Shown here: piece after piece, positions 10,748 to 56,714 of the stretch
Layout of the letters: every line of letters begins with the position of its first letter
How positions within the stretch are numbered: position 1 is the first letter of the stretch
Assembly: GCA_016192455.1 (NCBI GenBank)
Contig: JACPUC010000017.1
Span: 69,581-133,580 of the forward strand
DNA from: Candidatus Tectimicrobiota bacterium
GTDB taxonomy: Bacteria > JACPUC01
DNA: 64,000 nucleotides
Direction of reading: 5' to 3'
Translations under genes and position numbers: made by a program
Notes under the pieces: model-generated
What the model saw: the letters and a program-made list of their open reading frames with translations, nothing else
Databases searched by the model: none
What the model was told of the DNA's origin: nothing

Positions 10748-10871
10748 GATCGGCTTCCCGTCCTTGCGCCCCGTTGATCGCCGCGTCGTCCTGCGGGGTG
10801 GCGGCCGCCCTGGCCGCTTCGCGGCGGTGCGGCGCGCGCTTCCCTTCTGCCGTGCGCCGGCGGTCCCTGCC

Positions 10872-11918: not shown

Positions 11919-11968
11919 GGTGCTGCATCCCTCGGCAGGCGCCTGGAGCTTCTCAGCCGCCAGGAGCG

Positions 11969-12841: not shown

Positions 12842-12930
12842 GCCGCTCTCTCCCCAACCGTCCCCCACGCCACGCTGGATGCTCCGGAGCGCTCCCGGCC
12901 CCTGGTCCTCCGCGAGCGTGCGCAAGGCTC

Positions 12931-14489: not shown

Positions 14490-16013
14490 CTAGGTCAGGT
14501 ACGGCGCCACCTTCGCCTTGATCTTCTCCATGGCCTCCTTCGGAGGCCGCGCCGGCACCTGGTGCAGCTTCGTGAAGCGCTCGGGCAGCTTGAAGGTGGC
14601 GTCGATGCCGAGTTGCTCGCTCGTCACCGTATTGCCTTGCGGCGTCGCCAGCGCCGAGGGATCGAAGTAGAGCACCTGCCCCTTGTCGTTGAAGATCGTA
14701 TCGCTCTTCGGCTGCACCCGAGTATTGAGCGCCCAGATGACCTCGTCGAGGCTGTACGGGTCGATATCCGGGCCGACCACGACGACGTACTTCGCCACCG
14801 CTCCATACCGCCCCGGCGAGCCCCACACCGCATGGATGATCTGGTGCCCGAACCAGGCATACGGCTTCTCATGGGCGTCAACATTGAGCTGCACCACGTA
14901 GAACATGCCGCGCCCGCCGAAGGAGGGGTAGGCAACAACGTCTTGCACCTGCGGGAAACCCGACCGCAGGTAGCTCAGCACCTCGCTCTCGATGGTGATG
15001 AGCTGCAGGAAGCCGTGATCGTAGGGGGGCATGAAGCTGCGGGAGGGATGCCAGATGGGATCGCGCCGGCGGGTGATGCAGTTGATCTTCGTCACCGGCA
15101 GCAGTTGGTACTCATTGTAGTAACCCAGGAAGTTCCCATGCTTGTAGTCGGCAAGCTCTTGATCCGGCAGCACCTCTCCTTCGAGCACCCACTCGGACGT
15201 CGCCGGCACGTAGAGGTCCACCGTCTCGCAGCGCACGATCTCCGTGGGGCCGCCGCGCAGCGCCCCCACCATGGCGTACTTGTCCCAGGCGTGGCTGCCG
15301 CGGGGGCAGCGCGGGCCGCCGCCGATGATGAAGAGTTGCGGCTCGATGCAGGAGGCGATGGCGATCTCCAGCGGTTTGCCGCGCTTGACGGCGTTGGCGT
15401 AGTTCTCCGCCACGTGGATGCCCGTGGGGGGCTTCCAGAAGATGTAGGAGATGAGGCAGCGGCGGCGCAGCTCCTCGCTGTACGGCGTGCCGTCGTGCTG
15501 CAGATCGAGGAACGAGTGCAACAGGGCGCTGGCGTTCAAGGTGCCGGTGTCGGGGTCGCGCGTTACGGAGACGTTGTCGGAGATCATCGCCGACCACTCT
15601 TCGCCGAACCAGACCTTCGGCACTTGGGTTTGCAGGTCGATGTCGTCGCCCCGGATGATCACCTCCTTGCAGGGCGCTTTGCCGGGATCCACGATGACCG
15701 GCTCGGGCCAGCTCTCCGGCGGCGTCTTCACCGCCGCGGCCAGCTTCTCCTTGGCCTCGCCCCAGTTCTCCACCTCCAGCGCCAGGCACATGCGCTTGCG
15801 GCTGCCGATGTTGCCGATGTAAACCGGCACGCCAGGGGTGTTGTACCCCTCCAGGTTCGTCAGCTTCACCGCCGGCACGTTGTTGATCGAGAGGTAGCGG
15901 CTCAGCGCCATCAACTCGTTGTCGTTCCGCGTGACGCGAATGGGGACGTCCAAGGTGCGAAGCTCGCCCTGCTCTTCCAGATGCCGAAGAAATGCGCGCT
16001 GGTCCTGAAACAT
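14490..16013 (-). CDS. UbiD-family protein, divergent (catalytic Arg and Glu not conserved)
   Basis: A 507-residue UbiD-fold protein. Family features are present: FQDQRAFLRHLEEQGEL at the start, SVTRDPDTG near 165, an IGGGPRCPRGSHAWDKYAMV region near 258, EWVLEGEVLP near 300 and the C-terminal DPYSLDEVIWAL. However, the Arg of the usual GxYRxQ motif is replaced (the region reads LNASALLHSF) and the EGPFGE acid pair reads YKHGNFLGYY. It may therefore not be a standard prenyl-FMN decarboxylase. The ATG at 16013 has a GGGAGG site; upstream codons are non-homologous. A 12-base tandem repeat lies just upstream. It does not touch the liv operon (297-base gap). Confidence 0.85.
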   Translation of the reverse strand: MFQDQRAFLRHLEEQGELRTLDVPIRVTRNDNELMALSRYLSINNVPAVKLTNLEGYNTPGVPVYIGNIGSRKRMCLALEVENWGEAKEKLAAAVKTPPESWPEPVIVDPGKAPCKEVIIRGDDIDLQTQVPKVWFGEEWSAMISDNVSVTRDPDTGTLNASALLHSFLDLQHDGTPYSEELRRRCLISYIFWKPPTGIHVAENYANAVKRGKPLEIAIASCIEPQLFIIGGGPRCPRGSHAWDKYAMVGALRGGPTEIVRCETVDLYVPATSEWVLEGEVLPDQELADYKHGNFLGYYNEYQLLPVTKINCITRRRDPIWHPSRSFMPPYDHGFLQLITIESEVLSYLRSGFPQVQDVVAYPSFGGRGMFYVVQLNVDAHEKPYAWFGHQIIHAVWGSPGRYGAVAKYVVVVGPDIDPYSLDEVIWALNTRVQPKSDTIFNDKGQVLYFDPSALATPQGNTVTSEQLGIDATFKLPERFTKLHQVPARPPKEAMEKIKAKVAPYLT

Positions 16014-28382: not shown

Positions 28383-29726
28383 ATGTTCGAGTCACTCGGC
28401 GCGTTTGTTGATCACCTGCGCGCCCAGGGCAAGCTCGTTGACATCGACGAGGAGCTGTCACCCGACTACGAAGTGGCCGCCGCCGTGCGCCTCATCGACC
28501 AGCGCCTCGGCAAGGCGGTGCTCTGCCGCAAGGTGCGCGGCTGCGGCATGCCGGTGGTGGCGAATATCCTGGCGCGGCGCGACCTCCTGCGGCTCGCCTT
28601 CGCCTCTCCGAACGACCCCACCGAGGAGTACCTGCGGCGCATCGGCGGCTCCCTGCCGCCCGAGGTGGTGCGCGCGGCCCCCGTGCACGAGGTGGTCCAC
28701 GACGGCGACTTCGACGTCGCCAAGCTCTTGCCGCTTTTGCTGCACCATGAGAAGGACGCGGCGCGCTACATCTCCAGCGGCGTCACCGTGTCGCGCGACC
28801 CGCAGACCGGCCTGCGCGGCATGGGCATCTACCGCATCCAGGTGTGCGGCCCGCGCGAGCTGACGATCTCCATCGGCTCGCCGCCGGTCAGCGACTTCCT
28901 GGCGAAGGCGAACGCGACCGGCAAACCGCTCCCCGTCGCCATCGCCATCGGCTTGGAGCCGCTGAGCTACTTCGCCTCGGTGGTACCGGTCGCTGCGGGA
29001 GTCGACAAGTTCGACGCCGCCGGGACCTTACGCGGCGCGCCGGTGCCGCTCGTCGCGGCACGGACACAGCCCGTGGAGGTGTATGCCGAGGCCGAGATCG
29101 TCCTCGAGGGGGAGATGCTGCCGAACACGCAGCGCGAGGATGGACCAGTGGGGGAATCGACGGGCTACTACCACGCCGGCAGAAGCTGGGCGGCGCGCCT
29201 GACGGCGGTGACGCACCGGGCGCACCCCTTCTACTACGCCCTCGTGCCGTTCGCGGCGGAGAACACGCTGCTCATGGGGGTGACGCGCGAGGCTGACCTC
29301 CTCGCCGCGCTGCGCCGCAAGTTCCCCAGCGTGCGGCGCGTCTCCCTCACGCAGGGGAGCGTGGCGATGCTCGCCATCATCCAGGCTGCGCCGGCGAGCA
29401 AGGAGGAGGCGACGGCGATGGTGCGCGCCGCCCTCGAGGGATCAATGCAGGTGAAGACCGCCATCCTCGTCGATGCGGACGTGGACCCCCACGACCTCAA
29501 CGACGTGCAGTGGGCGCTCAGCACGCGCTTCCAGGCCGACCGCGACCTCCTGGTGCTGCGCGACCTGCCGGGGTCGCCGATCGATCCCACCGCCACGAAC
29601 CGGCGCACCGCCAAGCTCGGCCTCGACGCCACCCGGCCCGCGGATCAGGCTGAGGCCTTCATGCGCATCGCCCTGGATCCCGCGGCGCGGCGGCGCGTGG
29701 AGGAGATTCTGGCGCGGCTGACCTGA
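28383..29726 (+). CDS. UbiD-family decarboxylase (canonical active site)
   Basis: A 447-residue UbiD homologue expected to decarboxylate (or carboxylate) an unsaturated or aromatic acid using prenylated FMN. The conserved Arg is in GMGIYRIQV near residue 153 and the acid motif is EDGPVGESTGYY near 255, matching the R and E-x-E pattern of active UbiD enzymes. The C-terminal DVDPHDLNDVQWAL is also typical. ATG at 28383 follows GGGAGGAG; the open frame upstream is non-homologous. No ubiX (prenyltransferase) is in the window, so the cofactor must come from elsewhere. Divergent from the ThDP enzyme gene. Confidence 0.92.
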   Translation: MFESLGAFVDHLRAQGKLVDIDEELSPDYEVAAAVRLIDQRLGKAVLCRKVRGCGMPVVANILARRDLLRLAFASPNDPTEEYLRRIGGSLPPEVVRAAPVHEVVHDGDFDVAKLLPLLLHHEKDAARYISSGVTVSRDPQTGLRGMGIYRIQVCGPRELTISIGSPPVSDFLAKANATGKPLPVAIAIGLEPLSYFASVVPVAAGVDKFDAAGTLRGAPVPLVAARTQPVEVYAEAEIVLEGEMLPNTQREDGPVGESTGYYHAGRSWAARLTAVTHRAHPFYYALVPFAAENTLLMGVTREADLLAALRRKFPSVRRVSLTQGSVAMLAIIQAAPASKEEATAMVRAALEGSMQVKTAILVDADVDPHDLNDVQWALSTRFQADRDLLVLRDLPGSPIDPTATNRRTAKLGLDATRPADQAEAFMRIALDPAARRRVEEILARLT

Positions 29727-36078: not shown

Positions 36079-36218
36079 CAATCCCTCTCCGCGCCGATAA
36101 AGCAGAACCGTTGCGCCTGGCGCCGGGCGCACCTACCTTGAATGATGACGGGAGGCGGCCCCATCTCCAGGCGCGCGCCACCCGACGGCTTCACCCCGCG
36201 TTGCCGGAGGAGGCGCCC

Positions 36219-36578
36219 ATGCGACGCACCGTTTGGTTTCTCCTCGTGGTCATCCTGCTCTTCGCCGCGGCGCCGGGGTGGGCGGAAACACCCGCCCGCG
36301 CCGCCCTGTTCGAGCTGCGGGATGGGCACGTCTACCTCGGCGCCGTGGTCAAGGCGGACCGCGCCACCATCACAGTCGAGACGGCGCAAGGCGAGCGCAC
36401 CTTCCAGCTTGACGACGTGGCGCAGATCACCTTCGGCAAAACGGCGGCCGGCACAGCCCCGCAGGAACGCCCTCTCGACGAGGAGTTCGCCGACCTCATC
36501 CGCACCATCCTGCAAAAGGCCAAGCAGGCGATGAGAGAGCTGGACGTCTCGCGGCAGAAACCCGAGCCGTCCCGCTAG
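36219..36578 (+). CDS. Exported hypothetical protein
   Basis: A 119-residue protein with a clear signal peptide (MRRTVWFLLVVILLFAAAPG, cleavage near WAE-TP) followed by a beta-rich domain, FELRDGHVYLGAVVKADRAT, and a helical, charged tail. The start has GGAGGAGG just upstream. The small beta domain recalls short Sm- or PRC-like barrels found in envelope proteins, but no family is recognised. Confidence 0.7.
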   Translation: MRRTVWFLLVVILLFAAAPGWAETPARAALFELRDGHVYLGAVVKADRATITVETAQGERTFQLDDVAQITFGKTAAGTAPQERPLDEEFADLIRTILQKAKQAMRELDVSRQKPEPSR

Positions 36579-36721: not shown

Positions 36722-37741
36722 TTAGCTCGACGGCAGCAAGCTCAGGTCCACCACCTTTTCCATCGGCACCGCGGACTTGATCAGCCCCACCTTCACCAGA
36801 TAGTCCTGGAAGCGGGCGATCGACGGCACGTCCGGCTTGCCGTTGGGGTCGAGGTAGAAGGCGTGGTCGGCTGACTTGGCGATGATGTCGGGCGGCGTCT
36901 TGATGAACTTGCCGAAGATGCCGATGATCTCCTTGTTGGCCAGGCCGCGCTCGTTGTAGTAGCGGATTCCCTTCACGTAGGCCCGCAGCCAGCGCTTGCC
37001 CACCTCGCGGCGCTCCGTAAGAGCCTTGTTGCTGAAGATGAAAAGGCCGGTCTGGCCCACCTCGAGGCCCGGCAGCTCGTGCACCTCGACCAGGCGGTAG
37101 GCAAGGCCACGCGTTACTGCGATGGTGGGCCAAGGCTCCGAGCCCGTCGAGGCATCGATGGTCTTGTTCTGCAAGGCGGGGATGATGTTGGGCGGCTGCA
37201 TGGCCACGTGCTCGACGTCATCGAAGCTCAGCCCACTCAGCTCGAGGGCGCGCCCGAGGTAGTAGGAAGCAACGTTCCCCTTGCCGAACTGCGCCACCTT
37301 CATCCCCTTGAGGTCCTTCATCGACTTCACCTTGCCGCTGTCGAAGAGGTCCTTGCGGACGAGAATCGAGGAGTAGCCATACCCCTTCCGGCCCTGTCCC
37401 TTGTCGGCCACGGCCTTGAATTTCTCGCCCTGGGCAATGGAGTTAAAGAGACCGGCGCTCGGCCCGCCCCCGGCGACATCGATATCCCCGGTCGCCAGCG
37501 GGGCCATCATTTTCGTTCCGGAGGCGAAGCGCACCAGCTCGTTCTTGATCCCCTCCTCCTCGAAGTACTTCTTTTCCATCGCCACGTACAACGCCGCGAA
37601 GGAGAGTACCGGGAGGTAGCCCGTCTTGACGAGCTCTTGCGCGGCAGAGACGGTACTCCCGCCAAGGAGCATGGCAACCGTCAGCACGACCACGGCGCCG
37701 CTTCGCAACAGCGTTCCGCACCACCCCCACCTCTTTTCCAT
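36722..37741 (-). CDS. ABC-type substrate-binding protein (NMT1/SsuA-like)
   Basis: A 339-residue periplasmic binding protein of the NMT1/ThiY/SsuA type II fold. It has a signal peptide ending TVSAAQE, then VKTGYLPVLSFAALYVAMEK, LATGDIDVAGGGPSAGLFN near 80 and LKGMKVAQFGKG near 143. Relatives bind sulfonates, nitrate, pyrimidines or aromatic acids. No permease or ATPase gene is adjacent; it is the last gene behind the AprAB-like pair. The ATG follows GGGAGGATC. Confidence 0.87.
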   Translation of the reverse strand: MEKRWGWCGTLLRSGAVVVLTVAMLLGGSTVSAAQELVKTGYLPVLSFAALYVAMEKKYFEEEGIKNELVRFASGTKMMAPLATGDIDVAGGGPSAGLFNSIAQGEKFKAVADKGQGRKGYGYSSILVRKDLFDSGKVKSMKDLKGMKVAQFGKGNVASYYLGRALELSGLSFDDVEHVAMQPPNIIPALQNKTIDASTGSEPWPTIAVTRGLAYRLVEVHELPGLEVGQTGLFIFSNKALTERREVGKRWLRAYVKGIRYYNERGLANKEIIGIFGKFIKTPPDIIAKSADHAFYLDPNGKPDVPSIARFQDYLVKVGLIKSAVPMEKVVDLSLLPSS

Positions 37742-37908
37742 GATCCTCCCTCCCCTCAAAGGCCCTCCTCGGAGCCGGGGGGCCCGAACCTGTCGCCCCC
37801 GGTGGGACTCCCGTCCTGCGCACTGGAGATCGTGGCGCGGACACCGGCGTGGGCGCTCCAGCTCAGCGCCGCCGGTCCACGCAGCGTGTCCGCCGAACAC
37901 GCCCCTCG

Positions 37909-38103
37909 TCAGCTCTGAAACCAAAGCTTGACGCTCAACGCATGCGTGGGGCAGTCCTCCACGCAGGCGGCGCAGTGCCAGCACTCCTGGATGCGAAACA
38001 GCGGGTAGTTCTCCGCATCCATGTAGATGATGTCCCCCGGGCAAATCTCCTCGCACAGGGTGCACTTCTTCAGGCATTTCTCTCTCTCCAGCAGAATAGC
38101 CAC
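37909..38103 (-). CDS. Ferredoxin-like protein with two [4Fe-4S] sites (AprB-like)
   Basis: A 64-residue iron-sulfur protein. Cys10, 14, 17 and 21 (CLKKCTLCEEICP) and Cys41, 44, 47 and 51 (CWHCAACVEDCP) make two cluster motifs. Size and spacing resemble the ferredoxin core of adenylylsulfate reductase beta subunit without its C-terminal tail. It follows the FAD-binding flavoprotein gene by 124 bases on the same strand and is the obvious electron partner of that enzyme. Confidence 0.9.
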   Translation of the reverse strand: MAILLEREKCLKKCTLCEEICPGDIIYMDAENYPLFRIQECWHCAACVEDCPTHALSVKLWFQS

Positions 38104-38227
38104 AGGGTGCGCTCCTCATCTCCTGCACTGGTGCGTGGTCAACTCGACGTATCGACGCTCGTTGCGGCGTCACGTGGCCGACGCCGCCGGGCTTCCGCGC
38201 GCCTCCGCGGCGGCCGGCGTCTCGCCG

Positions 38228-39874
38228 TCACGGCAAGGGTCGCTGGTTCACCCGCAGAGAATCGCCGACCTTCTGGACGACAAGGTGTTTCAACCAGTTC
38301 CCGTCGTCGCGTTCGGTGTAATCGGTGCGGCGGTGGTTGAGGAACATGCGCGATTCCTTGCGCTCTCTCGCCGCCAAGGTGATCGCCTCGGCCACTTCGG
38401 CCATGTTGATCGCTTCGTGCGCTTTCACCTTCTGCTGCACGGTGCGGGCGCCGACCTGGTCGTAGGCGTAGCGCTGGATGCCGCGGATGCGCTCCAGGGC
38501 ATGGGTCAGGCCCACCTCGTTGCGATCGTAGCAGACGTAGCTCGACATGACGCGCTGCAGGTTGCGCTCGATCTGCACCGGCTCGACGCCCTCGGGGCGG
38601 CGCATCGGCAGCTCGAGGCGCTCCACCGCCGCCTGGATCGTCTTCTCCGAGGCGCGCGCCGGCCTCCGTAGTGATTTCGCGTAGTCGGCGGCCCGCTGCG
38701 CTCCCTCCCAGCCGAGGACCATCGCGCCGGTGGCGGAGTAGAAGCCGCTGTAGGCCGTGGCGTCCCCCACCCCGAAGAGGCCGGGCAAGGTGAGGCTGAA
38801 ATCGTGCCCCACGTCGATGCCGCCGGTCATCATGCCGCGAGTGTACGGCTCGGAGACCTCGATCTCCATCATGCTCTGCTCGAGATCGATGTCGCGCTCC
38901 TCGAAGTAGCGGAAGTAGGTCGGCTTCTCGTTGCGGAACCCGCGCAGGACGATCTCCACGTGCTCGCGGTCGAGGTCGCGGAAATCCAGGAAGACGGGGC
39001 CGCGCCCCTCCTTGATCTCGGTGTAGACGGCGTAGACGAGGAGCTGCCGCGGCGCTTTCTCCATGCGCTCGCCGGCATACTTGCCCATGAAGCGCTCGCC
39101 GTTCGCATTGATGAGCTTGGCGCCGACGCCGATGAAGGAGTTGATGCCCGGCGCGGTGAAGTCCTTCGGCACCAGGGTCCCCTGCACGAACTCCATGTGC
39201 TTCAGGCGCGCCCCCGCGCGCAGCGCCGCGGCGTAGCCGTCGCCGGTGTGGTAGGGGTTGCGCCAGCGGTTGAAGTTCTCGCCGCTGGGGGCCTGGTACA
39301 TGCGCGTGCAGCCGCCCGAGGCGATCACCGTCGCCTTGGCCTGAGCGATCAGCGGTTCGCCGCTGCGCGTGTCGAACCCGGCCGCCCCGACGACCTCGCC
39401 GTTCTCCACCAGGAGATCGGTCATCATGACGCGGTTGAAGATGCGGGCGCCGCTCTTCTTCACCTGCCGGGCATGCCCTTTCTTGAGGTCGAGGCCGTTC
39501 CAGATGTAGAGGTTGCAGCTCCAGAACATCGACTGGTCCCACACCAGGTTGCCCTGATCGTCGCGCACCTGGATGCCCCACTCCTCGAGGCGCTCCATCA
39601 TTGGGTAGGAGCCGTCGAGAATGAGCTCCACGAAGGTCTCGTCCTGCAGGCCATGACAGGCCCGCTTCATGCCGTCGATCTCCGCCTGCTTGTCGTGCAC
39701 GCCGGGGATGAGGCAGGCGATGTCCTTCAGCCCCATGCAGGCCTCGCCGCTGTGGTGCACGAACTGCTTCTCGAGGACCGCCACGTCGAGGCCGTTCTGG
39801 CGGGCGCGCACCGCCGCCTGGCAGCCTGCCAGCCCGCCGCCGATGATCAGGACGTCCGTGTCGATGCGTTGCAT
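38228..39874 (-). CDS. FAD-dependent oxidoreductase, AprA / fumarate reductase flavoprotein type
   Basis: A 548-residue flavoprotein of the succinate dehydrogenase/fumarate reductase/AprA group. VLIIGGGLAGCQAAVRARQN (residues 8-27) is the dinucleotide fold, HHSGEACMGLKD near 40 contacts FAD, ASGGCTRMYQ near 186 and MMTGGIDVGHDFSLTLPGLF near 350 are typical of the group. With its small 2[4Fe-4S] partner it looks AprAB-like, but the real substrate is open: no sat, qmo or dsr gene is present. In the module its partners are an MFS transporter, a GntR regulator and two binding proteins, which suggests a catabolic reductase or dehydrogenase. Confidence 0.87.
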   Translation of the reverse strand: MQRIDTDVLIIGGGLAGCQAAVRARQNGLDVAVLEKQFVHHSGEACMGLKDIACLIPGVHDKQAEIDGMKRACHGLQDETFVELILDGSYPMMERLEEWGIQVRDDQGNLVWDQSMFWSCNLYIWNGLDLKKGHARQVKKSGARIFNRVMMTDLLVENGEVVGAAGFDTRSGEPLIAQAKATVIASGGCTRMYQAPSGENFNRWRNPYHTGDGYAAALRAGARLKHMEFVQGTLVPKDFTAPGINSFIGVGAKLINANGERFMGKYAGERMEKAPRQLLVYAVYTEIKEGRGPVFLDFRDLDREHVEIVLRGFRNEKPTYFRYFEERDIDLEQSMMEIEVSEPYTRGMMTGGIDVGHDFSLTLPGLFGVGDATAYSGFYSATGAMVLGWEGAQRAADYAKSLRRPARASEKTIQAAVERLELPMRRPEGVEPVQIERNLQRVMSSYVCYDRNEVGLTHALERIRGIQRYAYDQVGARTVQQKVKAHEAINMAEVAEAITLAARERKESRMFLNHRRTDYTERDDGNWLKHLVVQKVGDSLRVNQRPLP

Positions 39875-39897
39875 TGCGAGTCTCCTGCCTCGGCGCG

Positions 39898-41064
39898 CTA
39901 GGCTGGAACCAAGCTGACGCGCCGCACGATGAACAGCCCCGCTCCCATGCCGAGCGCGACGTAGAGCGCCAGCGCGTTGAAGAGGGCCGGCAGCCCGAAG
40001 AGATCAGCCACGCTGCCCAGCAGCGTATTGACGACGATGCCGCTGAGGACGGCGCTGGTGTTGAAGAGCCCCAGGGCGACGGCCTGCCGGTGCTGCGGGT
40101 GGGCCTCCATCAGGTAGGCGGCGATCACACCCACGTTGGCGGTGAGAAAGAAGCCGAAACAGATGCCGAAGACCAGCAGCGGCCACCCCGGCGGCACCAC
40201 CGGCAGCAGCAGCAGGAGGACGATGTTGCACGCGAAGATGAGGTAGGCGATGTGCAGGCGCTTCCAGCGGTCCGAGAGCCAGCCCAGGCCGGGATTGGCC
40301 ACGAAGGCCACGAGGTTGATGAGGGTGAAGAGGAAGGTCGTCTCTCCCAGCTCCAAGCCCTTCACCTCCCGCAGGTACACCGGCAGGAAGCTCGAGGCGA
40401 CGAAGAAATTCGTGAACAGGAGGGCGTTGAGGAGACTCGCCGCCTGGAAGGATGGCCGGCGCAGGATTTCGAGCAGGCGCAGCGGCGGGCGGCGATCCCC
40501 AGGCGGACGGTCCTCCACCCCGCGGGTGGTGAACCAGAAGCCGATCCCCAGCGCCAGGGCGAGCAGGCCGTAGCTGGTGAACGCCACGCGCCACCCCGCC
40601 AACGCCGCCACCGCCCCCACGAGGGCCGCGCCGTAAGCCCGGCCGGTGGCTGATCCCACAGTGTGGAGGCCGTAAGCGCGCCCGCGCTCGTTCGGCAGGA
40701 AGACCTCGCCGATGAGCGAGAAGCCGGAGGTGAAGTAGAGGCTGAAGGCGAAACCGGCGACGAAGCGGTAGAGGAGGAAGAGCGGCAGGGAGCCGGCCGC
40801 CCACGCCGAGGCGATGGCGGTGCCACCGAGGAGCAACCCCGAGGCGACGATGGCCACCCGCCGGCCGATGGCCGTCGCCACGTATCCCCCCGCGATGAGC
40901 GTCACGGCGTAGCCGGCATCGTAGGTGGCGAGGAGCGCCGCGGCTCCGCCATAGCTCAGGCCAAACTCGCCGCGGATTTCCGCCAGCACGATCGCCAGGG
41001 CGCTGCGGTTGGCGTGGCAGAGCGAGAACGCCGCACTGCATGCAAGCAGGACGCGCCATTTCAG
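39898..41064 (-). CDS. MFS transporter, probable CTG start coupled to the GntR gene
   Basis: A 388-residue, twelve-segment major facilitator. Coding similarity starts at LKWRVLLACSAAFSLCHANR, a normal first membrane segment. The only codon that can open it is CTG at 41064; AAGGAGG sits 7 bases upstream. This CTG overlaps the TGA stop of the regulator gene as CTGA, mirroring the common ATGA coupling. A later GTG near 40989 would lose the first membrane segment. Alternatively a one-base error separates it from a GTG at 41071 in another frame. Substrate unknown; it lies between the regulator and the flavoprotein. Confidence 0.8.
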   Translation of the reverse strand: MKWRVLLACSAAFSLCHANRSALAIVLAEIRGEFGLSYGGAAALLATYDAGYAVTLIAGGYVATAIGRRVAIVASGLLLGGTAIASAWAAGSLPLFLLYRFVAGFAFSLYFTSGFSLIGEVFLPNERGRAYGLHTVGSATGRAYGAALVGAVAALAGWRVAFTSYGLLALALGIGFWFTTRGVEDRPPGDRRPPLRLLEILRRPSFQAASLLNALLFTNFFVASSFLPVYLREVKGLELGETTFLFTLINLVAFVANPGLGWLSDRWKRLHIAYLIFACNIVLLLLLPVVPPGWPLLVFGICFGFFLTANVGVIAAYLMEAHPQHRQAVALGLFNTSAVLSGIVVNTLLGSVADLFGLPALFNALALYVALGMGAGLFIVRRVSLVPA

Positions 41065-41996
41065 CGGTCACCCTCCTTCCCAGCGAGCCGCTGCCCCGAT
41101 CGCCGCCCGCGCCCGGCTGGAGCCGCTGCGCCGCGCTGCGCCTGCGCTCCGCTCCCCGCCGGAGGCAGTTTCCTCTCGGTCGCCCGTCTCCCGCTGCCGC
41201 TCAGCTTTCTCGCGCCCCGCTGGGGCCCGGCACCGGCGCGGCGCGGCGGCGCCCCAGGAGCGACCCCCTCATCCTTGTCTGCCGGCTCCGTCGCGCTGCG
41301 CCGCCCCCACTCCCGCACGTCGAGGATGTGTTCGGCCATGATGGCGCGGGCGCGGTCTCCGTCGTGTTGCGCCAGGGCGTCATAGATGCGCTCGTGGTAG
41401 CGGATCGCCGCCGTCATGCTCTCCTCGTCGACGGGGACGTCGGCGAACGACGCGATGAGGCTGTGCTTGAAGGAGTGCATGATGATGCTGATGGCCGGGT
41501 TGTGGGCGGCATCCGCCACCAAGAGGTGGAAATCGAGGTGGGAGAACTTGGCGGCTCGCCGCGCCGCGAGATCGCGCCGGGCGAGATCGAGCGCCCCGGC
41601 CATCCGTTCGAGGTCCTCCGCCGTGGCGCGCTCGGCGGCAAGTCGCGCCACGTACGGCTCGAGCGCCACCCGCACCTCGGTATGGTCGTCAAGGCTGACG
41701 ATCCCTAGGCGGATGGCCCGCGCCAGGGAGTCGCCGACGACGCGGTGGTCGGGGTGGTTGATGAAGCAGCCGCCCGCCGCCCCCTGCCGGATACTGATGA
41801 GGCCCAGGGCCTCGAGCGTGCGCAGGGCCTCGCGCACCGAGGAGCGGCTGCTGGCGAACTGGCGGGCCAGCTCGTACTCCGCGGGGAGGCGGTCGCCCGG
41901 AGCGAGGAGGCCACGGTAGATCGCCCCCTCGATCTGCCCGACGATCTCCTGCGGCCGCCGGAAGGGCGCGTGCAGAGGCTGGAAGAGGTTGGCCAT
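41061..41996 (-). CDS. GntR-family (FCD/FadR-type) transcriptional regulator
   Basis: A 311-residue regulator with an N-terminal winged HTH (IEGAIYRGLLAPGDRLPAEY, then the SSRSSVREALRTLEALGLIS helix pair) and an all-helical FCD ligand-binding domain with metal-type His residues (HLDFHLLVADAAHNPA near 150). The last 80 residues are a low-complexity Arg/Ala/Pro tail that is unusual for the family. It likely senses an organic acid and controls the module around it. The ATG at 41996 is used, as upstream codons lack homology. Confidence 0.87.
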   Translation of the reverse strand: MANLFQPLHAPFRRPQEIVGQIEGAIYRGLLAPGDRLPAEYELARQFASSRSSVREALRTLEALGLISIRQGAAGGCFINHPDHRVVGDSLARAIRLGIVSLDDHTEVRVALEPYVARLAAERATAEDLERMAGALDLARRDLAARRAAKFSHLDFHLLVADAAHNPAISIIMHSFKHSLIASFADVPVDEESMTAAIRYHERIYDALAQHDGDRARAIMAEHILDVREWGRRSATEPADKDEGVAPGAPPRRAGAGPQRGARKLSGSGRRATERKLPPAGSGAQAQRGAAAPAGRGRRSGQRLAGKEGDR

Positions 41997-42288
41997 GGGA
42001 CGTCGTCCTGGCAGCCGCCGCGGCCTTGCCGGCAGCCACGGGCTGGCGGCGCGCCCTGCGAGGCCACGGCGCTCGCAGCGCCGGCGAGATCGGAGTAAGT
42101 GTCTTACGTCGGACATTTACCCGCAATACATCCCCCTGTCAAGAGGGTCCCCGGACGCGCCGCAGCGGTCGGCAGCGCCCTACGCCGCAACGCCCGCCCA
42201 CCACCGGGCGCGGCGGCGCACCGTCTCGTGACGTATGCCCTCGCGCCGCCGCGGGGCAGAACGGAGCGCATGGAACGTCCGGGCACTC

Positions 42289-43323
42289 TTAGCGCGGCTT
42301 CGCGAACGAGGTATCCACGTAGTCGGCGGCGTTCAGCCGCGTCTTGGTGTAGCCCCATTCCTTGAGGAGATCGAAGTTGCGCTGCAGCACCTCCAGGCTC
42401 GGCAAGGCGTCGGGGTCGCGGTAGAGGTCCTGTTTCGAGAACGCCCAGCCCTTGTAGCGGCCCACGGGGGCCTTCGTGAAGCGCGCCGTGATCTCCAGCG
42501 CCTCGTCGCGGTTCTTGGGATCGATGAACCACTTCCAGGCCTTCACCCAGTCGCTGAAGAACTGCCGCGCCAGCTCAGGGTTCTGCCGCAGCCACTCGGT
42601 GCGGGCCACCTTCATGATCATCTCGTTCGTCCCCACGGCGTCGGCGGCGGTGAAGAGGGGCCGAATGCCGCCCGCCTGCCGCGCCTTGGCCCAGAACGGG
42701 ATCAGGAAGACCGCCGCATCGACCTTGCGCTCGCGCAGCATGGCCTCGTTGTTGGGGAACTCCACCTCGATGATGCGGTAGTCGCGCTTGTCCTCCATGC
42801 CGTGCTTGCGCATGATGACGCGGATCGGAATATCGAGGCCGCCGCCGATGACATTCGTGGAGATGACCTTGCCCCGCAGGTCGGCAACCGAACGGACGGG
42901 GGAGTCCTCCAGCACCCCCCAGGTGATGGAGAAGTAGCCCGGCTGCCCGTCGCGGTTGAGCGCCGCCACAGCCTTCACTTCCAACCCCGCCCGTTCGATC
43001 CCGAAGGCGAGGCTGGTGTAAGAGAGGGTGCCGAGATCGATCCCCTTCCCCGCCAGCGCCTGGATCTGCGGCGAGGTACCCCGGAAGTGGCTGAATTCGA
43101 TGGTGTACGTCTTGCCGTAGTAAGTGAGGAGCGCCGGTTTTTCGAACAGCAGGGGGGTGATGTCCGACGGCGGCGTGCCGTAGCCCACCCTGACCTTCAG
43201 CGGCTCGGCGGCGGGAGCGGGGCTGCTCACGAGCGCCAAGCAGAGCAGACTGAGCAGGCTCACCCCAGCGGCACGCAGGCGTCTTCGTCCACCAGTCAGC
43301 TTCTCGGGCCCACTCCTTTCCAT
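42289..43323 (-). CDS. ABC-type substrate-binding protein (NMT1-like)
   Basis: A 344-residue exported binding protein: signal peptide with the SLLSLLCLALVSSPAPAAE hydrophobic core, then KVRVGYGTPPSDITPLLF, LAGKGIDLGTLSYTSLAFG near 93 and SVADLRGKVISTNVIG near 145. The start has GGAGGAGG at good spacing. Relatives in soil bacteria bind sulfonates or aromatic acids. It precedes the regulator gene by about 290 bases; no ABC permease or ATPase is nearby. Confidence 0.86.
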   Translation of the reverse strand: MERSGPEKLTGGRRRLRAAGVSLLSLLCLALVSSPAPAAEPLKVRVGYGTPPSDITPLLFEKPALLTYYGKTYTIEFSHFRGTSPQIQALAGKGIDLGTLSYTSLAFGIERAGLEVKAVAALNRDGQPGYFSITWGVLEDSPVRSVADLRGKVISTNVIGGGLDIPIRVIMRKHGMEDKRDYRIIEVEFPNNEAMLRERKVDAAVFLIPFWAKARQAGGIRPLFTAADAVGTNEMIMKVARTEWLRQNPELARQFFSDWVKAWKWFIDPKNRDEALEITARFTKAPVGRYKGWAFSKQDLYRDPDALPSLEVLQRNFDLLKEWGYTKTRLNAADYVDTSFAKPR

Positions 43324-44855: not shown

Positions 44856-45776
44856 TCAGCGCTCAATCGGCAGATCGTCGCGATTGCCCCACTCCGCCCA
44901 CGAGCCGTCATAGCCACGCACCGTCGGATACCCCAGATTGCGCAGAGTTACATACGTGTGGGCGGCGCGGTGCATGGTCTGGCAGTAGACCACCACCTCC
45001 TTGTCCTTGGTGATGCCCTTGGCCTCGTACATCGCCGCGAGATCGCGCGCCCCCTTCCAGCGCGGCCCCTGCGCGCCCCCCTCAAGGTTCTCCAACCACT
45101 CAATATGCTTCGCGCCGGGGATATGGCCACCCCGTTTTGCACGCACCTGCGCGCCCGTGTACTCAGCGGCGCTGCGGGCATCGACGATCGCCACCTTCGG
45201 GTTGGTCAGCTTGCCGCGCAGCTCCTCCGCCGTGATGATGAGCTGGGGTTGCAACGCAACCTGGAAGGTTGCCGGCGTCACCGTGGGGAGAGTGGTCGTC
45301 ACGGCTCCGCCGTCGCTCCGCCAAGCCTTCAGGCCGCCGTCGAGCAGCTTGACGTTCTGGTGCCCGGCGTACTCGAGCGTCCAGAAGAGGCGCGCCGCGT
45401 TCAGCCCGCTGTCGGCATCATAGACGACGACGGGCGTCTGGCGGCTGACGCCCCGCTCGCCGACCGCCTTTGCGATCACCTCCGCAGACGCCGCCATGCC
45501 GGGCACGCCCTTGACGGTGGCGCGGACGGCATCCTGCGGCAAGCTCAGCGCCCCCGGCAGGTGGCCCGCCGCGTACTCCTCAGCGCTGCGCGCGTCGAGG
45601 ATGCGCAGCGTCGGGTCGCTGAGCCGGGCGCGCAGCCACGTCACATCAACGATTACCTGCGCCTGACTGCTGGCTACCGGCGCGGCTGCCAGCCAGATGG
45701 CGAGAATCGCCAGGCCGGCCAGGATGATGAGCGCACCCTGCGTTCTCTTACCGTTGCACCAATGCCGACTGCTCAT
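44856..45776 (-). CDS. Thiosulfate sulfurtransferase, tandem rhodanese, exported or anchored
   Basis: A 306-residue two-domain rhodanese. An N-terminal hydrophobic segment (ALIILAGLAILAIWLAAA) indicates export or anchoring. The first domain (ILDARSAEEYAAGHLPGALS) has Asp in place of the catalytic Cys (VVYDADSG), as is normal for tandem rhodaneses; the second carries the active Cys in VVYCQTMHRA near 263. It moves sulfane sulfur to cyanide, thiols or sulfite. AAGGAG lies before the ATG. Confidence 0.92.
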   Translation of the reverse strand: MSSRHWCNGKRTQGALIILAGLAILAIWLAAAPVASSQAQVIVDVTWLRARLSDPTLRILDARSAEEYAAGHLPGALSLPQDAVRATVKGVPGMAASAEVIAKAVGERGVSRQTPVVVYDADSGLNAARLFWTLEYAGHQNVKLLDGGLKAWRSDGGAVTTTLPTVTPATFQVALQPQLIITAEELRGKLTNPKVAIVDARSAAEYTGAQVRAKRGGHIPGAKHIEWLENLEGGAQGPRWKGARDLAAMYEAKGITKDKEVVVYCQTMHRAAHTYVTLRNLGYPTVRGYDGSWAEWGNRDDLPIER

Positions 45777-50164: not shown

Positions 50165-50262
50165 CGGCACGCAGGAGGGCGCCCAGGGAGCCGGCCGCGC
50201 GCCCTCAGCACTGCCGGTGAGGGCAACGCCACGGGGTGGCGGCCAGGCTGGGTAAAGAGTTC

Positions 50263-51135
50263 ATGGCAACCGTCTCCCTGCAGTTGATCATCGGTGGCAT
50301 CCTGCAAGGGGGTATCTACGCCCTGGCGGCCTTCGGGCTGTCGCTCATCTTTGGGGTGTCGAACATTCTCAACCTCGCCCATGGCGAATTCCTCATGCTC
50401 GGCGCCATGGTGAGCTTCCTCGTGTACACGGGAACAGAGCTGTCGCCCTTCGTCACCGCCCTGGGGCTGATCCCCCTGTTCTTCGCCGTCGGGTCGCTCT
50501 TCGAGCGCGGTCTCATCCGCCCGCTCTCGGGGCGACCCGATCACATGCGGCTGGTTGCCTCCATCCTGGTGACGCTGGGCGCCTCCATTGCCATCGAGGA
50601 TTTCGCCTCCTTCGCCTTCGGGCCGAACGAGAAGGCACTGGCGTACACCCTGCCCTCCTTTCAAGTTGGGCCGATCATTGTCTCCACCATTCGTCTCGCT
50701 GGCTTGGCCTTCATTCTGGTGTTGACGCTGGCCCTGCACACCTTCCTGAAACGCACCTACCAGGGCCGCGCCATCGTGGCGACCACCCAGAGTCGCCGCG
50801 GCGCCATGCTCGTCGGGGTGAACATTCAGCGCGTCGCCAACCTCTCGTTCGGCATCGGCGCCATCCTGGCGGCGCTTGCCGGGGTGTTCTTCGTCATCAT
50901 GTTTCCGGTGACGCCGTATGTCGGCTTGCCGTTGACATTGAAGTATCTCTGCATCATCGTGCTCGGCGGGCTTGGCAGCCTCTTTGGCACGCTTCTTGGC
51001 GGGCTGGTTCTGGGGCTGGTGGAGATCCTCGTCGCCTACTACAGCCCGCACTGGTCAGAAACCTCGGCGTTCATCATCCTGGTGCTCATCCTCCTCATCC
51101 GCCCCCAGGGGCTGTTTGGACGCTTCTCAGGCTAG
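50263..51135 (+). CDS. livH: Branched-chain amino acid ABC transporter permease LivH (second operon)
   Basis: A 290-residue permease. ILNLAHGEFLMLGAMVSFLV near residue 45 is the LivH signature, and the VATTQSRRGAMLVGVNIQRV loop is near 177. It differs clearly in sequence from the LivH at 11969-12841, so it serves a separate system. The ATG at 50263 is chosen; a start 9 codons earlier is possible. Confidence 0.92.
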   Translation: MATVSLQLIIGGILQGGIYALAAFGLSLIFGVSNILNLAHGEFLMLGAMVSFLVYTGTELSPFVTALGLIPLFFAVGSLFERGLIRPLSGRPDHMRLVASILVTLGASIAIEDFASFAFGPNEKALAYTLPSFQVGPIIVSTIRLAGLAFILVLTLALHTFLKRTYQGRAIVATTQSRRGAMLVGVNIQRVANLSFGIGAILAALAGVFFVIMFPVTPYVGLPLTLKYLCIIVLGGLGSLFGTLLGGLVLGLVEILVAYYSPHWSETSAFIILVLILLIRPQGLFGRFSG

Positions 51136-51219
51136 CGGCCGGCGGACCGTCGCAGCGTCGCCCGCCGCATCCCCAGAGGTATGACGCCCGCGGCTGGGGA
51201 ACCAAGAGAGGGAGTGCCG

Positions 51220-52143
51220 ATGCGCACCACGCTGCTGCTGCTCTTGGTGGCGTTCTTAGCCTCGATCCCCTTCCTGGGGTCGAGCTACTTGCCGACCTTC
51301 TTCATCATCCTGTTCATGAACCTCATCCTGGCATCGAGCTACGACATCGTCGGCGGCTACCTCGGCTACGTCAACCTCGGGCACGCCGTCTTCTTCGGCC
51401 TCGGCGCCTACACCTTCGGCATCACCTGGAACGCGCAGGCGCCGCTCGGCGTGGCCTTCGTCTGCGCGGTGGCGGCGGCGGTGATCTTCGCGGCGCTGAT
51501 GGCCTACCCCTTCTTCCGCCTGCACGGCGCTTACTTCTCCCTGGGCACCTTCGGGCTCATCCGCCTCTTCGAGCTCCTGGCCTTCAACTTCGGCAGCCTG
51601 ACGGGAGGCTCGGGCGGCCTCAGCGTCCCTTCCAGCTACCGGCTCCTGCCGACCTTCTACACCACACTCATTCTGGCCCTCCTGACGCTCGCCATCGTTT
51701 ACAAGATCGCCAAGTCGCGCCTGGGGCTGGCTTTCGTGAGCATCCGCGAGGACGAGAAGGTGGCGCGCGACTTCGGCGTCCCGGTGCTGCGCTACCAAAC
51801 CCTCGCCCTCATGCTCAGCGCCAGCATTGCCGGTCTCATGGGGGCGGTCTACACCTGGTACATCATCTACATCAACCCGGAGGCGGTTTTCGGCACGGAG
51901 ATGGCCCTGCTGCCGGTGGCCATGGCCATGCTCGGCGGCACCGGCGCCATCGCCGGCCCGGTGATCGGCGCCGTTTTCATCTCCATCGTCGAGGAGTTCC
52001 TGTGGACGAAACTCCCGTACCTGCACTTGGCGGCATATGGGCTGGTCATTGCGGGGGTGGGGTTGTTCATGCCGGGCGGCATTGTGCGGGTGCCGTTCAT
52101 CGAGGCTCGCTTGCGCTGGCTTGGACTGGTCGAAGATCTTTGA
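51220..52143 (+). CDS. livM: Branched-chain amino acid ABC transporter permease LivM (second operon)
   Basis: A 307-residue permease: IVGGYLGYVNLGHAVFFGLG near residue 43 is the LivM signature, and SRLGLAFVSIREDEKVARDF near 165 is the coupling loop. ATG at 51220 has GGGAG at good spacing and the next residues form a hydrophobic segment. It is 84 bases after livH. Confidence 0.93.
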   Translation: MRTTLLLLLVAFLASIPFLGSSYLPTFFIILFMNLILASSYDIVGGYLGYVNLGHAVFFGLGAYTFGITWNAQAPLGVAFVCAVAAAVIFAALMAYPFFRLHGAYFSLGTFGLIRLFELLAFNFGSLTGGSGGLSVPSSYRLLPTFYTTLILALLTLAIVYKIAKSRLGLAFVSIREDEKVARDFGVPVLRYQTLALMLSASIAGLMGAVYTWYIIYINPEAVFGTEMALLPVAMAMLGGTGAIAGPVIGAVFISIVEEFLWTKLPYLHLAAYGLVIAGVGLFMPGGIVRVPFIEARLRWLGLVEDL

Positions 52144-52262
52144 AAGAGAGCAGCGGCTCTCTCCCGCGAGGTGCGTCGTCGCGGTGGGCGGGTCGTCAGG
52201 CCGCGGCGGGGTGACGCGGGCGCCTCGACTCTTCGTGACAGGCAGCTCTTGAGCAGGCAATC

Positions 52263-53018
52263 ATGCCAATCATCTTGGAAGCGTCCTCCATCTCGAAGAG
52301 TTTCCGTGGCCTGATGGCCATTTCCGACGTGAGCGTGCGGCTCGAGGAGGGCCAGATCACGGGCCTCATTGGACCGAACGGGGCCGGCAAGACGACGCTC
52401 TTCAACATCATCACCGGCGGTATTGCACCCGACCGCGGCACGGTCACCTTCCTCGGCAAGGAGCTCGGCAAGCTCACCCCCGATCGCATCTGCCGCCTCG
52501 GCATCTCCCGCACCTACCAGCTCGTCCGCCCATTCCTCAGCCTGCCGGTCTACCGGAACGTGCTCATCGGAGTCTACTTCGGGCGAGATGGGTACATCAG
52601 CTCCGCGAAGGCGGAGCGCGAGGTGGATGAGCTGCTCGAGTTCGTCGGCTTGCGCGACAAGCGCGCGGCGCGCGCCAGCGAGCTCAACACCGTGGAGCGC
52701 AAGCACCTGGAGATCGCCCGCGCCCTGGCCACCCTGCCGCGCCTCCTGCTCCTCGATGAGGTGGTGGCCGGACTCAATCCCAGCGAGACGAGCGCGGTCA
52801 TGGAGTCCATCCGCGAAATCCGGCGCCGGGGTGTGACGATCTTCCTCATCGAACACGTCATGAAAGTCGTCATGGGGCTCTCCGATCACCTCCTGGTCCT
52901 GCATCACGGCGAGCTCATCGCCGAGGGCAAACCGGAGAAGGTCGCCACTTCGCCAGCCGTGGTGGAGGCCTACCTGGGTCACCGGAGACCCGCCGGAGCC
53001 TACCATGCTGAGGGTTGA
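52263..53018 (+). CDS. livG: ABC transporter ATP-binding protein LivG (second operon)
   Basis: A 251-residue ATPase: Walker A GPNGAGKTTL near residue 37, LNTVERKHLEIARAL in the signature position (LSG replaced by LNTVE, as often in LivG), Walker B LLLLDEVVAGLNP and the IFLIEHVMKVVMG H-loop region. Walker B has Glu-Val where Glu-Pro is usual. It overlaps livF by 14 bases. Confidence 0.92.
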   Translation: MPIILEASSISKSFRGLMAISDVSVRLEEGQITGLIGPNGAGKTTLFNIITGGIAPDRGTVTFLGKELGKLTPDRICRLGISRTYQLVRPFLSLPVYRNVLIGVYFGRDGYISSAKAEREVDELLEFVGLRDKRAARASELNTVERKHLEIARALATLPRLLLLDEVVAGLNPSETSAVMESIREIRRRGVTIFLIEHVMKVVMGLSDHLLVLHHGELIAEGKPEKVATSPAVVEAYLGHRRPAGAYHAEG

Positions 53019-53709
53019 GCAGCTCGCCGTCTCCTACGGCATCATTCCGGCGGTGCACGACGTCTCCCTGACGGTCAATGAGAAGGAGATCGTCTCGCTC
53101 ATCGGCGCCAATGGAGCCGGTAAGACCACCACCCTGAACGCCATCTCCGGAGTTCTGCCGATTCGCAGCGGGCGGGTGTTCTTCGATGGGCAGGAGCTGA
53201 CGGGGGCGGGCTCGCACCGGATCGTGGAACGCGGCCTCATCCAGATTCCGGAGGAGCGTCATCTCTTCCCGGACATGAGTGTTGCCGAGAACCTGGAAAT
53301 GGGGGCCTTCTCAGCCGAGGCGCGCCACCTGGCGCGGCGGACGCTTGCCTGGGTGCACGAGCTCTTCCCCCGCCTCCATGAGCGCCGCTCGCAGCTTGCC
53401 GGCACGCTAAGCGGCGGGGAGCAGCAGATGCTGGCGATCGGTCGCGGCCTCATGGCGCGGCCGAAGCTCCTCATGCTAGACGAGCCCTCCCTCGGCCTGG
53501 CACCACTCATCGTCGACGACCTCTTCCGCATCATGGTGGAGATCAACCGCTCCGACGTAGCGATCCTCCTGGTCGAGCAGAATGCCGCCCAGGCCCTGGA
53601 GACCTCGCACCGCGCCTACGTCATGGAGAATGGCCGCATCACCCTGGCCGGCGAGGCCCAGGCCCTGCTCGAGGATGAGCAGGTGCGCGCCGCGTACCTG
53701 GGCATCTGA
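53005..53709 (+). CDS. livF: ABC transporter ATP-binding protein LivF (second operon)
   Basis: A 234-residue ATPase: GANGAGKTT near residue 34, IPEERHLFPDMSVAENLEMG near 76, LSGGEQQMLAIGRGLM near 134 and LLMLDEPSLGLAP near 156. Last gene of the operon; its start overlaps livG, as in the first Liv operon. Confidence 0.93.
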   Translation: MLRVEQLAVSYGIIPAVHDVSLTVNEKEIVSLIGANGAGKTTTLNAISGVLPIRSGRVFFDGQELTGAGSHRIVERGLIQIPEERHLFPDMSVAENLEMGAFSAEARHLARRTLAWVHELFPRLHERRSQLAGTLSGGEQQMLAIGRGLMARPKLLMLDEPSLGLAPLIVDDLFRIMVEINRSDVAILLVEQNAAQALETSHRAYVMENGRITLAGEAQALLEDEQVRAAYLGI

Positions 53710-55292: not shown

Positions 55293-56714
55293 TCAGCCGT
55301 AACGCTCGTACGGGATGTTCGTCAGCCGGTCGCGCGGGATGAAGTTCTCCAGGTCGATCTTCTCCATGACATCCTGGGGCACCGAGAGCTTGCGCGCGAA
55401 GCGCCGCGGGTCCACCGGTTTGGTGCAGTCGAAGCCGGTCTTCGTGCCCAGTTCGCTGGGGCGGCTGGGATCAAGGGTGGGGGCCGGCAACCCCGGCAAG
55501 ACGACGATGTCGCGGTCGCCCTGGAAGCGGGTGGCGAAGGCCTGCATCACCTGCTGCTCGTCGAAGATATCGACATCGGTGTCGAAGACCCAGGCGTGCT
55601 TCACCAGGTGGTGCGAGGTGAGGGCTTCGACGAGGGCGATCTTGCTGCTCCCCTCGACGAGCTTGTCGATCTGCAGGTAGAGGTGGAACTGGCCGCAGCC
55701 GGACATGGGAGCGTAGACGTTGGTGATCGTCGGCACGGCGCGGCGCACCTTCTCGTAGGCGGCCCCCTCGCGCGTCAGCGAGCCGAGGCAGTGCGAGTGC
55801 CCCACCATGAGGTCGTACCAGTGGGCGCCGGCGCGGTGCGTCACCGCTGTCACCTCGAGGTACGGGTTCCAGCGCTGCGGGCCGCTGTAGCGGGTGTACT
55901 CGCCGAAGGGGCCTTCGGGACGGCGCTTGCCGGCCATCAGGTGGCCCTCGATGACGAACTCGGCGTCCGCCGGCACCAGGAAGTCGTCGCCCAGGGTCTC
56001 CGACGGCACCAGTCGCAGGGGTTGGCCCAGCATGCCGCCGGCGGCCGCGAAGTGGCTATCGGTGAGGGGGATGCGCGTCTCGCAACCGAGGATGACGAGA
56101 GGGTGGGCACCCACCCAGTAGGCCACCCGCAGGTCCTCCCGGCGGCGCTCGTGCAGGGCGAAGATGTGGCCGTTGTGGGTGCTCGCTTCGAGCAGGACGC
56201 GAATCTCCCGCGGGCCGTGGATCCAGCCGCGGTGCAGGGCCGAGTTGTCGGTGCCGTACTCCGGGTGGTAGCAGGTGAGAAAGCCGCCGCTGATGTAGGG
56301 CCCCGGGTCCATGTCGTGGTGGACGAGGGCCGGCAGTTTCGTCAGGTCTATCTCGTCGCCGCGCGCCACGACCTCCTTCACCGGCGCCTGGGCGCGCTTC
56401 ACGACCACCGGCTGCCGGCGCTGGTGGCTGCGCTCGTAGGTGATGATCCCCAGCCGCTCGGCAGGGGCCTGCATCAGCTCCGCCAGGCGCCGCCGGCTCG
56501 ACATGAGGTAGGTGACGAGCGGAAACGCCGACGGCTCCCCGGCCTCGGTGCGCACGTTCTCGAAGACGAGGATGGGAAAGCGTTTCTCGCGCTCGAGCTT
56601 GGTGGCGAGCGCGGTCACCTGGTAGCGCGCCTGGACGGGCTGCGCGATGCGCACCACGTCCTCCGGGTGGCGCTCCTCCCAGAATGCCAGGAACGATTGC
56701 AGATCAGCCGACAT
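55293..56714 (-). CDS. UbiD-family decarboxylase (operon with zinc ribbon and M20 peptidase)
   Basis: A 473-residue UbiD homologue. SADLQSFLAFWEERHPEDVV at the start, ISGGFLTCYHPEYGT near 140 with an Arg in DNSALHRGWIHG, FVIEGHLMAGKRRPEGPFGE near 245 (the acidic EGPFGE motif) and DTDVDIFDEQQVMQAFATRF near 395 are typical. The ATG at 56714 has GGGGAG upstream. Its active-site residues look complete. Substrate unknown; prenyl-FMN must be supplied by an unlinked UbiX. Confidence 0.9.
   Translation of the reverse strand: MSADLQSFLAFWEERHPEDVVRIAQPVQARYQVTALATKLEREKRFPILVFENVRTEAGEPSAFPLVTYLMSSRRRLAELMQAPAERLGIITYERSHQRRQPVVVKRAQAPVKEVVARGDEIDLTKLPALVHHDMDPGPYISGGFLTCYHPEYGTDNSALHRGWIHGPREIRVLLEASTHNGHIFALHERRREDLRVAYWVGAHPLVILGCETRIPLTDSHFAAAGGMLGQPLRLVPSETLGDDFLVPADAEFVIEGHLMAGKRRPEGPFGEYTRYSGPQRWNPYLEVTAVTHRAGAHWYDLMVGHSHCLGSLTREGAAYEKVRRAVPTITNVYAPMSGCGQFHLYLQIDKLVEGSSKIALVEALTSHHLVKHAWVFDTDVDIFDEQQVMQAFATRFQGDRDIVVLPGLPAPTLDPSRPSELGTKTGFDCTKPVDPRRFARKLSVPQDVMEKIDLENFIPRDRLTNIPYERYG

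Follow-up and report, generated by a model that had tools for sequence, protein, structure and literature searches.

The window analysed here is a stretch of 64,000 nucleotides from Candidatus Tectimicrobiota bacterium, and the subject of this report is a six-gene block on its minus strand, built around a flavoprotein and a small ferredoxin. A sequence-only reading had described the block as an AprAB-like module accompanied by two orphan binding proteins. The six genes were all confirmed, with Pfam matches for each, and are listed below in gene order.

42289..43323, minus strand: SBP1, an exported solute-binding protein (SBP) of the NMT1/SsuA type, 344 aa (PF13379, 1.4e-14; PF09084, 2e-14; signal peptide by reading)
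41061..41996, minus strand: GntR-family regulator with an FCD domain (PF07729, 2.4e-22; PF00392, 3.3e-16; C-terminal part, 41064-41299, doubtful)
39898..41064, minus strand: transporter of the major facilitator superfamily (MFS), 388 aa (PF07690, 7.7e-46; probable CTG start)
38228..39874, minus strand: AprA-like flavoprotein, alpha subunit, 548 aa (FAD_binding_2, PF00890, 1.2e-39; Succ_DH_flav_C, PF02910, 1.6e-17)
37909..38103, minus strand: 2[4Fe-4S] ferredoxin, probable AprB-type beta subunit, 64 aa, GTG start (PF13187, 6.1e-8)
36722..37741, minus strand: SBP2, a second exported NMT1/SsuA-type solute-binding protein, 339 aa (PF13379, 7.7e-21)

Since all six genes gave Pfam matches and their third-position GC was 0.84-0.93, they are regarded as genuine coding genes. 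SBP1 and the regulator gene are 292 bases apart, the regulator and MFS genes overlap by 4, and the following intervals towards SBP2 measure 23, 124 and 167 bases; the next gene downstream (36201-36578) lies in the opposite orientation. The absence of sat, qmo, dsr, ABC permease and ABC ATPase genes, as previously claimed, holds within the block; by reading, the window's closest ABC genes belong to the LIV type (50236-53709 and 9274-12925).

By its Pfam domains the flavoprotein is a member of the complex II flavoprotein superfamily. It passed no curated cut-off among the NCBIfam equivalogs checked, and all its scores fell far short: 111.6 bits against AprA (TIGR02061, cut-off 641.75), 262.9 against the F-type 3'-phosphoadenosine 5'-phosphosulfate (PAPS) reductase (PRK06854, cut-off 557), 310.2 against the HEAT-type PRK08275 (NF006131, cut-off 587) and 141.3 against NadB (TIGR00551, cut-off 452.75). 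The closest solved relative was the alpha chain of the PAPS reductase of Methanothermococcus (8a8o_A, 6e-62), and the 8a8o alpha chain was also the top Foldseek match of the AlphaFold model. This model (mean pLDDT 70, C-terminus unreliable), in the alignment of which all rows besides the window protein were NadB-like, confirms the superfamily; fumarate reductase (FRD) and PAPS reductase (PAPSR) are not separable by it (Z 42.5 vs 42.3).

In a tree of 53 rows the window flavoprotein formed one clade with a second copy from the same genome (contig C24), to which it is 70% identical. With weak support (87/76), the sister group of this clade came from a different phylum (G137); the window and C24 proteins were placed on the side of AprA, PAPSR and the HEAT-type proteins, apart from succinate dehydrogenase (SDH), FRD and NadB (97/92). 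Positions inside the AprA clade and inside the HEAT-type clade were rejected by the approximately unbiased (AU) test (p=1e-4 and p=2e-4, respectively), and a grouping with SDH/FRD/NadB was weakly rejected (p=0.035). Within the complex II flavoprotein superfamily, the protein falls on the side of AprA and PAPS reductase, yet it is not AprA. The phylogeny against AprA, FrdA and NadB had been proposed by the sequence-only reading, whose term AprAB-like is justified for ancestry and for architecture and wiring, given the side of the tree and the matches to both the alpha and the beta chain of 8a8o, but not as an AprA identity. A true AprA with an unlinked sulfur oxidation set had also been considered there; what was found is a protein outside AprA in a genome where no Sat, CysH or CysD was detected. 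This genome is a metagenome-assembled one of 4.46 Mb and 88% completeness, in which neither ATP sulfurylase (Sat, PF01747) nor PF01507 (CysH, CysD) was found; PF01507 was present in 14 of 14 control genomes.

The residues of the adenosine 5'-phosphosulfate (APS) site in AprA include N74, R265, R317 and H398 (A. fulgidus numbering). The catalytic arginine is R287 in FrdA, R286 in SdhA and R290 in NadB, and in FrdA the dicarboxylate is held by the substrate residues H232, H355 and R390. Four of the five APS-site residues checked (N74, R265, R317 and H398), which are all conserved in AprA and PAPSR, were replaced in both the window and the C24 proteins, and W234 and the KD motif were conserved in both. 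R276 of the window protein occupies the same alignment column as the catalytic arginine of FrdA, SdhA and NadB. The arginine is common to all seven relatives from the G137 phylum (7/7); elsewhere the column holds T or A in AprA, T in PAPSR and a gap in the HEAT-type proteins. The FrdA substrate residues H232, H355 and R390 are not kept in the window flavoprotein, where T, P and a gap were found. Mainly because R276 was gained and the AprA residues were lost, hydride chemistry on carbon is preferred over APS or PAPS reduction. A covalently bound FAD was also considered and dropped, as the FAD-carrying histidine of SDH/FRD aligns with a glycine.

The cluster motifs of the ferredoxin are CX3CX2CX3CP and CWHCX2CX3CP. 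It could be aligned to the beta chain of PAPSR (8a8o_C, 4.1e-10) with Trp42 on Trp42, the residue proposed for electron transfer in the solved PAPS reductase by the authors of the structure (PMC10322725). The CWxC motif is conserved in the AprB/PAPSR-like, HEAT-type and G137-type ferredoxins and not in three other ferredoxins of the genome (C2, C6 and C9), and the lengthened first cluster motif is shared with most of the HEAT-type and G137 ferredoxins. Since the tryptophans coincide and both motifs are shared, the protein is probably an AprB-type subunit rather than a general ferredoxin. Thus a two-cluster beta subunit with an electron-transfer tryptophan, a feature of AprAB, is present. The ferredoxins from C2, C6 and C9, devoid of the CWxC tryptophan, are parts of three more flavoprotein and ferredoxin modules near NMT1 SBPs or ABC genes (C2:24000-43000, C6 and C9), which represent another flavoprotein lineage; an arylsulfotransferase gene lies in the C2 module.

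The C24 flavoprotein is divergent from genes for a thiamine pyrophosphate (TPP) decarboxylase pair (ComDE-like, under cut-off), a UbiD and an SBP2-type protein and from hydantoinase genes, and it is followed by an SBP1-type protein, an ABC ATPase, two permeases, a cyclase and an amidohydrolase. The core common to the window and C24 therefore consists of the flavoprotein and the SBP1 and SBP2 types, to which a complete ABC importer is added at C24. Comparison of the two flavoprotein genes gave a dN of 0.23 and a dS of 0.55 (NG86; rough, high GC), and their ratio of 0.41 indicates that both proteins are constrained. In the window's own phylum, of which the genome set contained no other member, the flavoprotein search returned its own genome only. 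Across the domain, a match at 1e-60 was obtained in 8 of 386 genomes, counting that of the window, and the complete set of six genes was absent from every neighbourhood read among these matches. Two short patterns (CNLYIWN and KHMEFVQ) retrieved only NadB-like proteins from GTDB species, which is a weak test of orthologue absence. Conservation of the block, which had been suggested as a check, thus applies to its parts and not to the whole: either the flavoprotein with the ferredoxin or, in the same genome, the flavoprotein with SBP1 and SBP2 is conserved.

Both binding proteins exceeded the gathering cut-off as NMT1-like SBPs (PF13379, PF09084) and remained short of the SsuA cut-off of 163.5 bits (TIGR01728; SBP1 104.8, SBP2 131.4). 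The closest copies of SBP1 among the loci examined were found on C31 (41%), C9 (40%) and C24 (31%), and no PDB sequence matched it at 0.001. SBP2 matched the SsuA structure 2x26 at 3.3e-10 and is related to the SBPs beside the flavoproteins on C24 (40%) and C2 (37%). The genome encodes 77 NMT1-type binding proteins and 54 PF00528 permeases, and such a permease lies within 3 kb of only 22 of the 77. As had been claimed, SBP1 and SBP2 are orphans locally, but this is not a special trait, since the permease-less state is the norm of the genome (55/77). An NMT1 protein lies within 2 kb of six of the nine complex-II-type flavoproteins (chance p=7e-5), none of these six being an ordinary SdhA.

The pair was compared with known and related systems. 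With the F-type PAPS reductase (MtPAPSR, 8a8o, PRK06854) it shares the fold, the combination of an alpha flavoprotein with a 2[4Fe-4S] beta subunit and Trp42; it differs in the loss of the sulfonucleotide-site residues, the gain of the SDH-type arginine and the lack of a detectable ATP sulfurylase in the genome. The fold and the subunit plan are also those of AprAB (TIGR02061/TIGR02060), but the flavoprotein lies outside the AprA clade with four residues replaced, and the beta subunit is short, without the AprB tail. FrdA, SdhA and NadB have in common with the window protein the fold and the position of the catalytic arginine, whereas both substrate histidines and the second arginine are missing here and the partner is a 2[4Fe-4S] ferredoxin; neither an FrdB/SdhB-type iron-sulfur subunit nor a membrane anchor is encoded in the block. 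The pair of the G137 phylum, present in 7 of 18 genomes, has the SDH-type arginine, the CWxC ferredoxin and the same AprA-residue losses, but the identity is 31-34% and no NMT1 SBP was seen beside it. In two genomes of that phylum the flavoprotein comes after a creatininase and a VOC gene.

The HEAT-type system (PRK08275, PRK13800) resembles the block in that the flavoprotein is accompanied by an AprB-like ferredoxin, an NMT1-like SBP and often a GntR regulator. In contrast to the window, where no HEAT or ABC gene lies within the block, it contains ABC permease and ATPase genes and a HEAT protein, its flavoprotein has kept N74 and H398, and the arginine is missing. HEAT-type loci were seen in cyanobacteria, Burkholderiales, rhizobia and actinomycetes (L041, L043, L044, L045, L046, L064 and L066); they comprise, with parts varying by locus, a flavoprotein, a CWxC ferredoxin, an SBP, a permease, an ATPase, a HEAT-repeat protein and a GntR regulator. 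Some are near sulfur-export genes (TauE/YeiH), and R265 and R317 are not kept in them. No characterised relative of the HEAT-type or the window-type system was found in a limited literature search. Another related locus (G288, L065:1718-5369) encodes CysC, an F-type PAPS reductase alpha subunit, a ferredoxin and CysM, likely a methanogen-type, assimilatory PAPS reductase from a bacterium; its flavoprotein, which served as positive control, scored 749 against the PRK06854 cut-off of 557.

The block is best explained as a catabolic cluster in which a ferredoxin-wired oxidoreductase acts on an organic acid taken up by the cell, an interpretation to which we give about an even chance. Outside the inner membrane, SBP1 and SBP2 would capture the acid or related compounds, and import would be the task of the MFS protein; alternatively, SBP1 might serve the C24 ABC importer in trans. 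The best NCBIfam matches of the MFS protein are organic-anion transporters (TIGR00893 and TIGR00881), all far under cut-off. The FCD protein may sense the acid and control the genes of the block; a GntR-type operator pattern sought in the window occurred no more often than by chance. The flavoprotein and the ferredoxin would assemble into an AprAB-shaped complex, where electrons would pass among the ferredoxin clusters, Trp42, FAD and the substrate, with a direction of flow which we infer, as we do the substrate. The chemistry would most likely be hydride transfer (dehydrogenation or C=C reduction) via R276, not APS/PAPS reduction. The catabolic redox system for an organic acid foreseen by the sequence-only reading agrees with the context, that is, with the FCD regulator, the organic-anion-type MFS protein and the SBPs in the window and with the UbiD, TPP decarboxylase and hydantoinase genes at C24. 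Its suggestion of an organosulfur substrate drew no direct support, and the lost sulfonucleotide residues argue against chemistry of the APS/PAPS type.

Several results weigh against the proposed organic acid oxidoreductase. A sister position of the flavoprotein to the AprA+PAPSR clade was not rejected (p-AU 0.264), the alignment of R276 rests on sequence at 20-30% identity, and with the histidines and the second arginine of SDH/FRD/NadB lost, the arginine may have another role. No ferredoxin adjoins the C24 flavoprotein. With one NMT1 gene per 58 kb, part of the adjacency is chance, and at 88% completeness an APS pathway may have escaped assembly.

It is unlikely that the six genes are chance neighbours, in which case the SBPs would be unrelated and the regulator-MFS and flavoprotein-ferredoxin pairs separate units. 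The abundance of NMT1 SBPs in the genome, intergenic gaps of 124-292 bp and the failure to find the whole block elsewhere are consistent with it, but the genes stand in order on one strand, the SBPs are enriched beside complex-II-type flavoproteins and the set of flavoprotein, SBP1-type and SBP2-type proteins recurs at C24. Slightly less probable again is an organosulfur enzyme, in which SsuA-like SBPs would capture a sulfonate or a sulfate ester that is then imported and cleaved or oxidised by the pair. The SBPs are indeed closest to the SsuA/taurine family, no sulfate assimilation genes were found, a sulfopyruvate-decarboxylase-like ComDE is encoded at C24 and an arylsulfotransferase at C2, and the distantly related HEAT-type system lies beside TauE/SafE, YeiH and 3-mercaptopropionate dioxygenase genes. 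However, there are 77 NMT1 proteins here and the NMT1 ligands of other organisms are many and unrelated, ComDE scores under its cut-off, the sulfur-contacting AprA residues are gone and the block is without a desulfonation gene. That the flavoprotein acts in sulfur assimilation or energy metabolism, as a divergent reductase of APS/PAPS or a divergent sulfite oxidase, is very improbable in spite of the best PDB match, the sister position (p=0.26), the kept W234 and KD motif and the related genuine operon at L065, which includes APS kinase and CysM, since the four site residues are replaced, no Sat, CysD or CysH was found, the scores are far under the AprA and PRK06854 cut-offs and AprA membership was rejected.

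A more specific form of the organic acid interpretation is put forward tentatively, at somewhat less than an even chance: the pair may represent an unnamed enzyme family which combines AprAB wiring with a fumarate-reductase-type arginine, a ferredoxin-driven organic-acid reductase or dehydrogenase recurrently coupled to permease-less SBPs. Such flavoproteins are routinely labelled APS reductase or fumarate reductase in databases, and here the residues and the genome fit neither. If the proposal is true, carbon chemistry has taken over the electron-wiring plan of AprAB, and the small size of the pair makes it accessible to expression and assay.

The results also indicate a lineage whose genome is strongly oriented towards binding proteins and UbiD decarboxylases. 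In this genome 59 UbiD-family decarboxylases were counted, as compared with at most 17, mostly 0-1, in 77 other genomes across the domain, and three of the genes are in the window (14490-16013, 28383-29726 and 55293-56714).

Regarding the gene calls, the most likely start of the MFS gene is a CTG which overlaps the stop of the FCD gene, and it was preferred because the first GTG would cost the first transmembrane helix. The last approx. 78 codons of the FCD open reading frame (41064-41299) do not have the codon-position GC pattern, thus the true C-terminus of the regulator is doubtful, and a frame error or a lost stop is possible. A two-domain rhodanese with an apparent signal peptide, near 3-mercaptopyruvate sulfurtransferase, is encoded at 44856-45776 on the strand of the block and upstream of it; a USP gene lies between the two.

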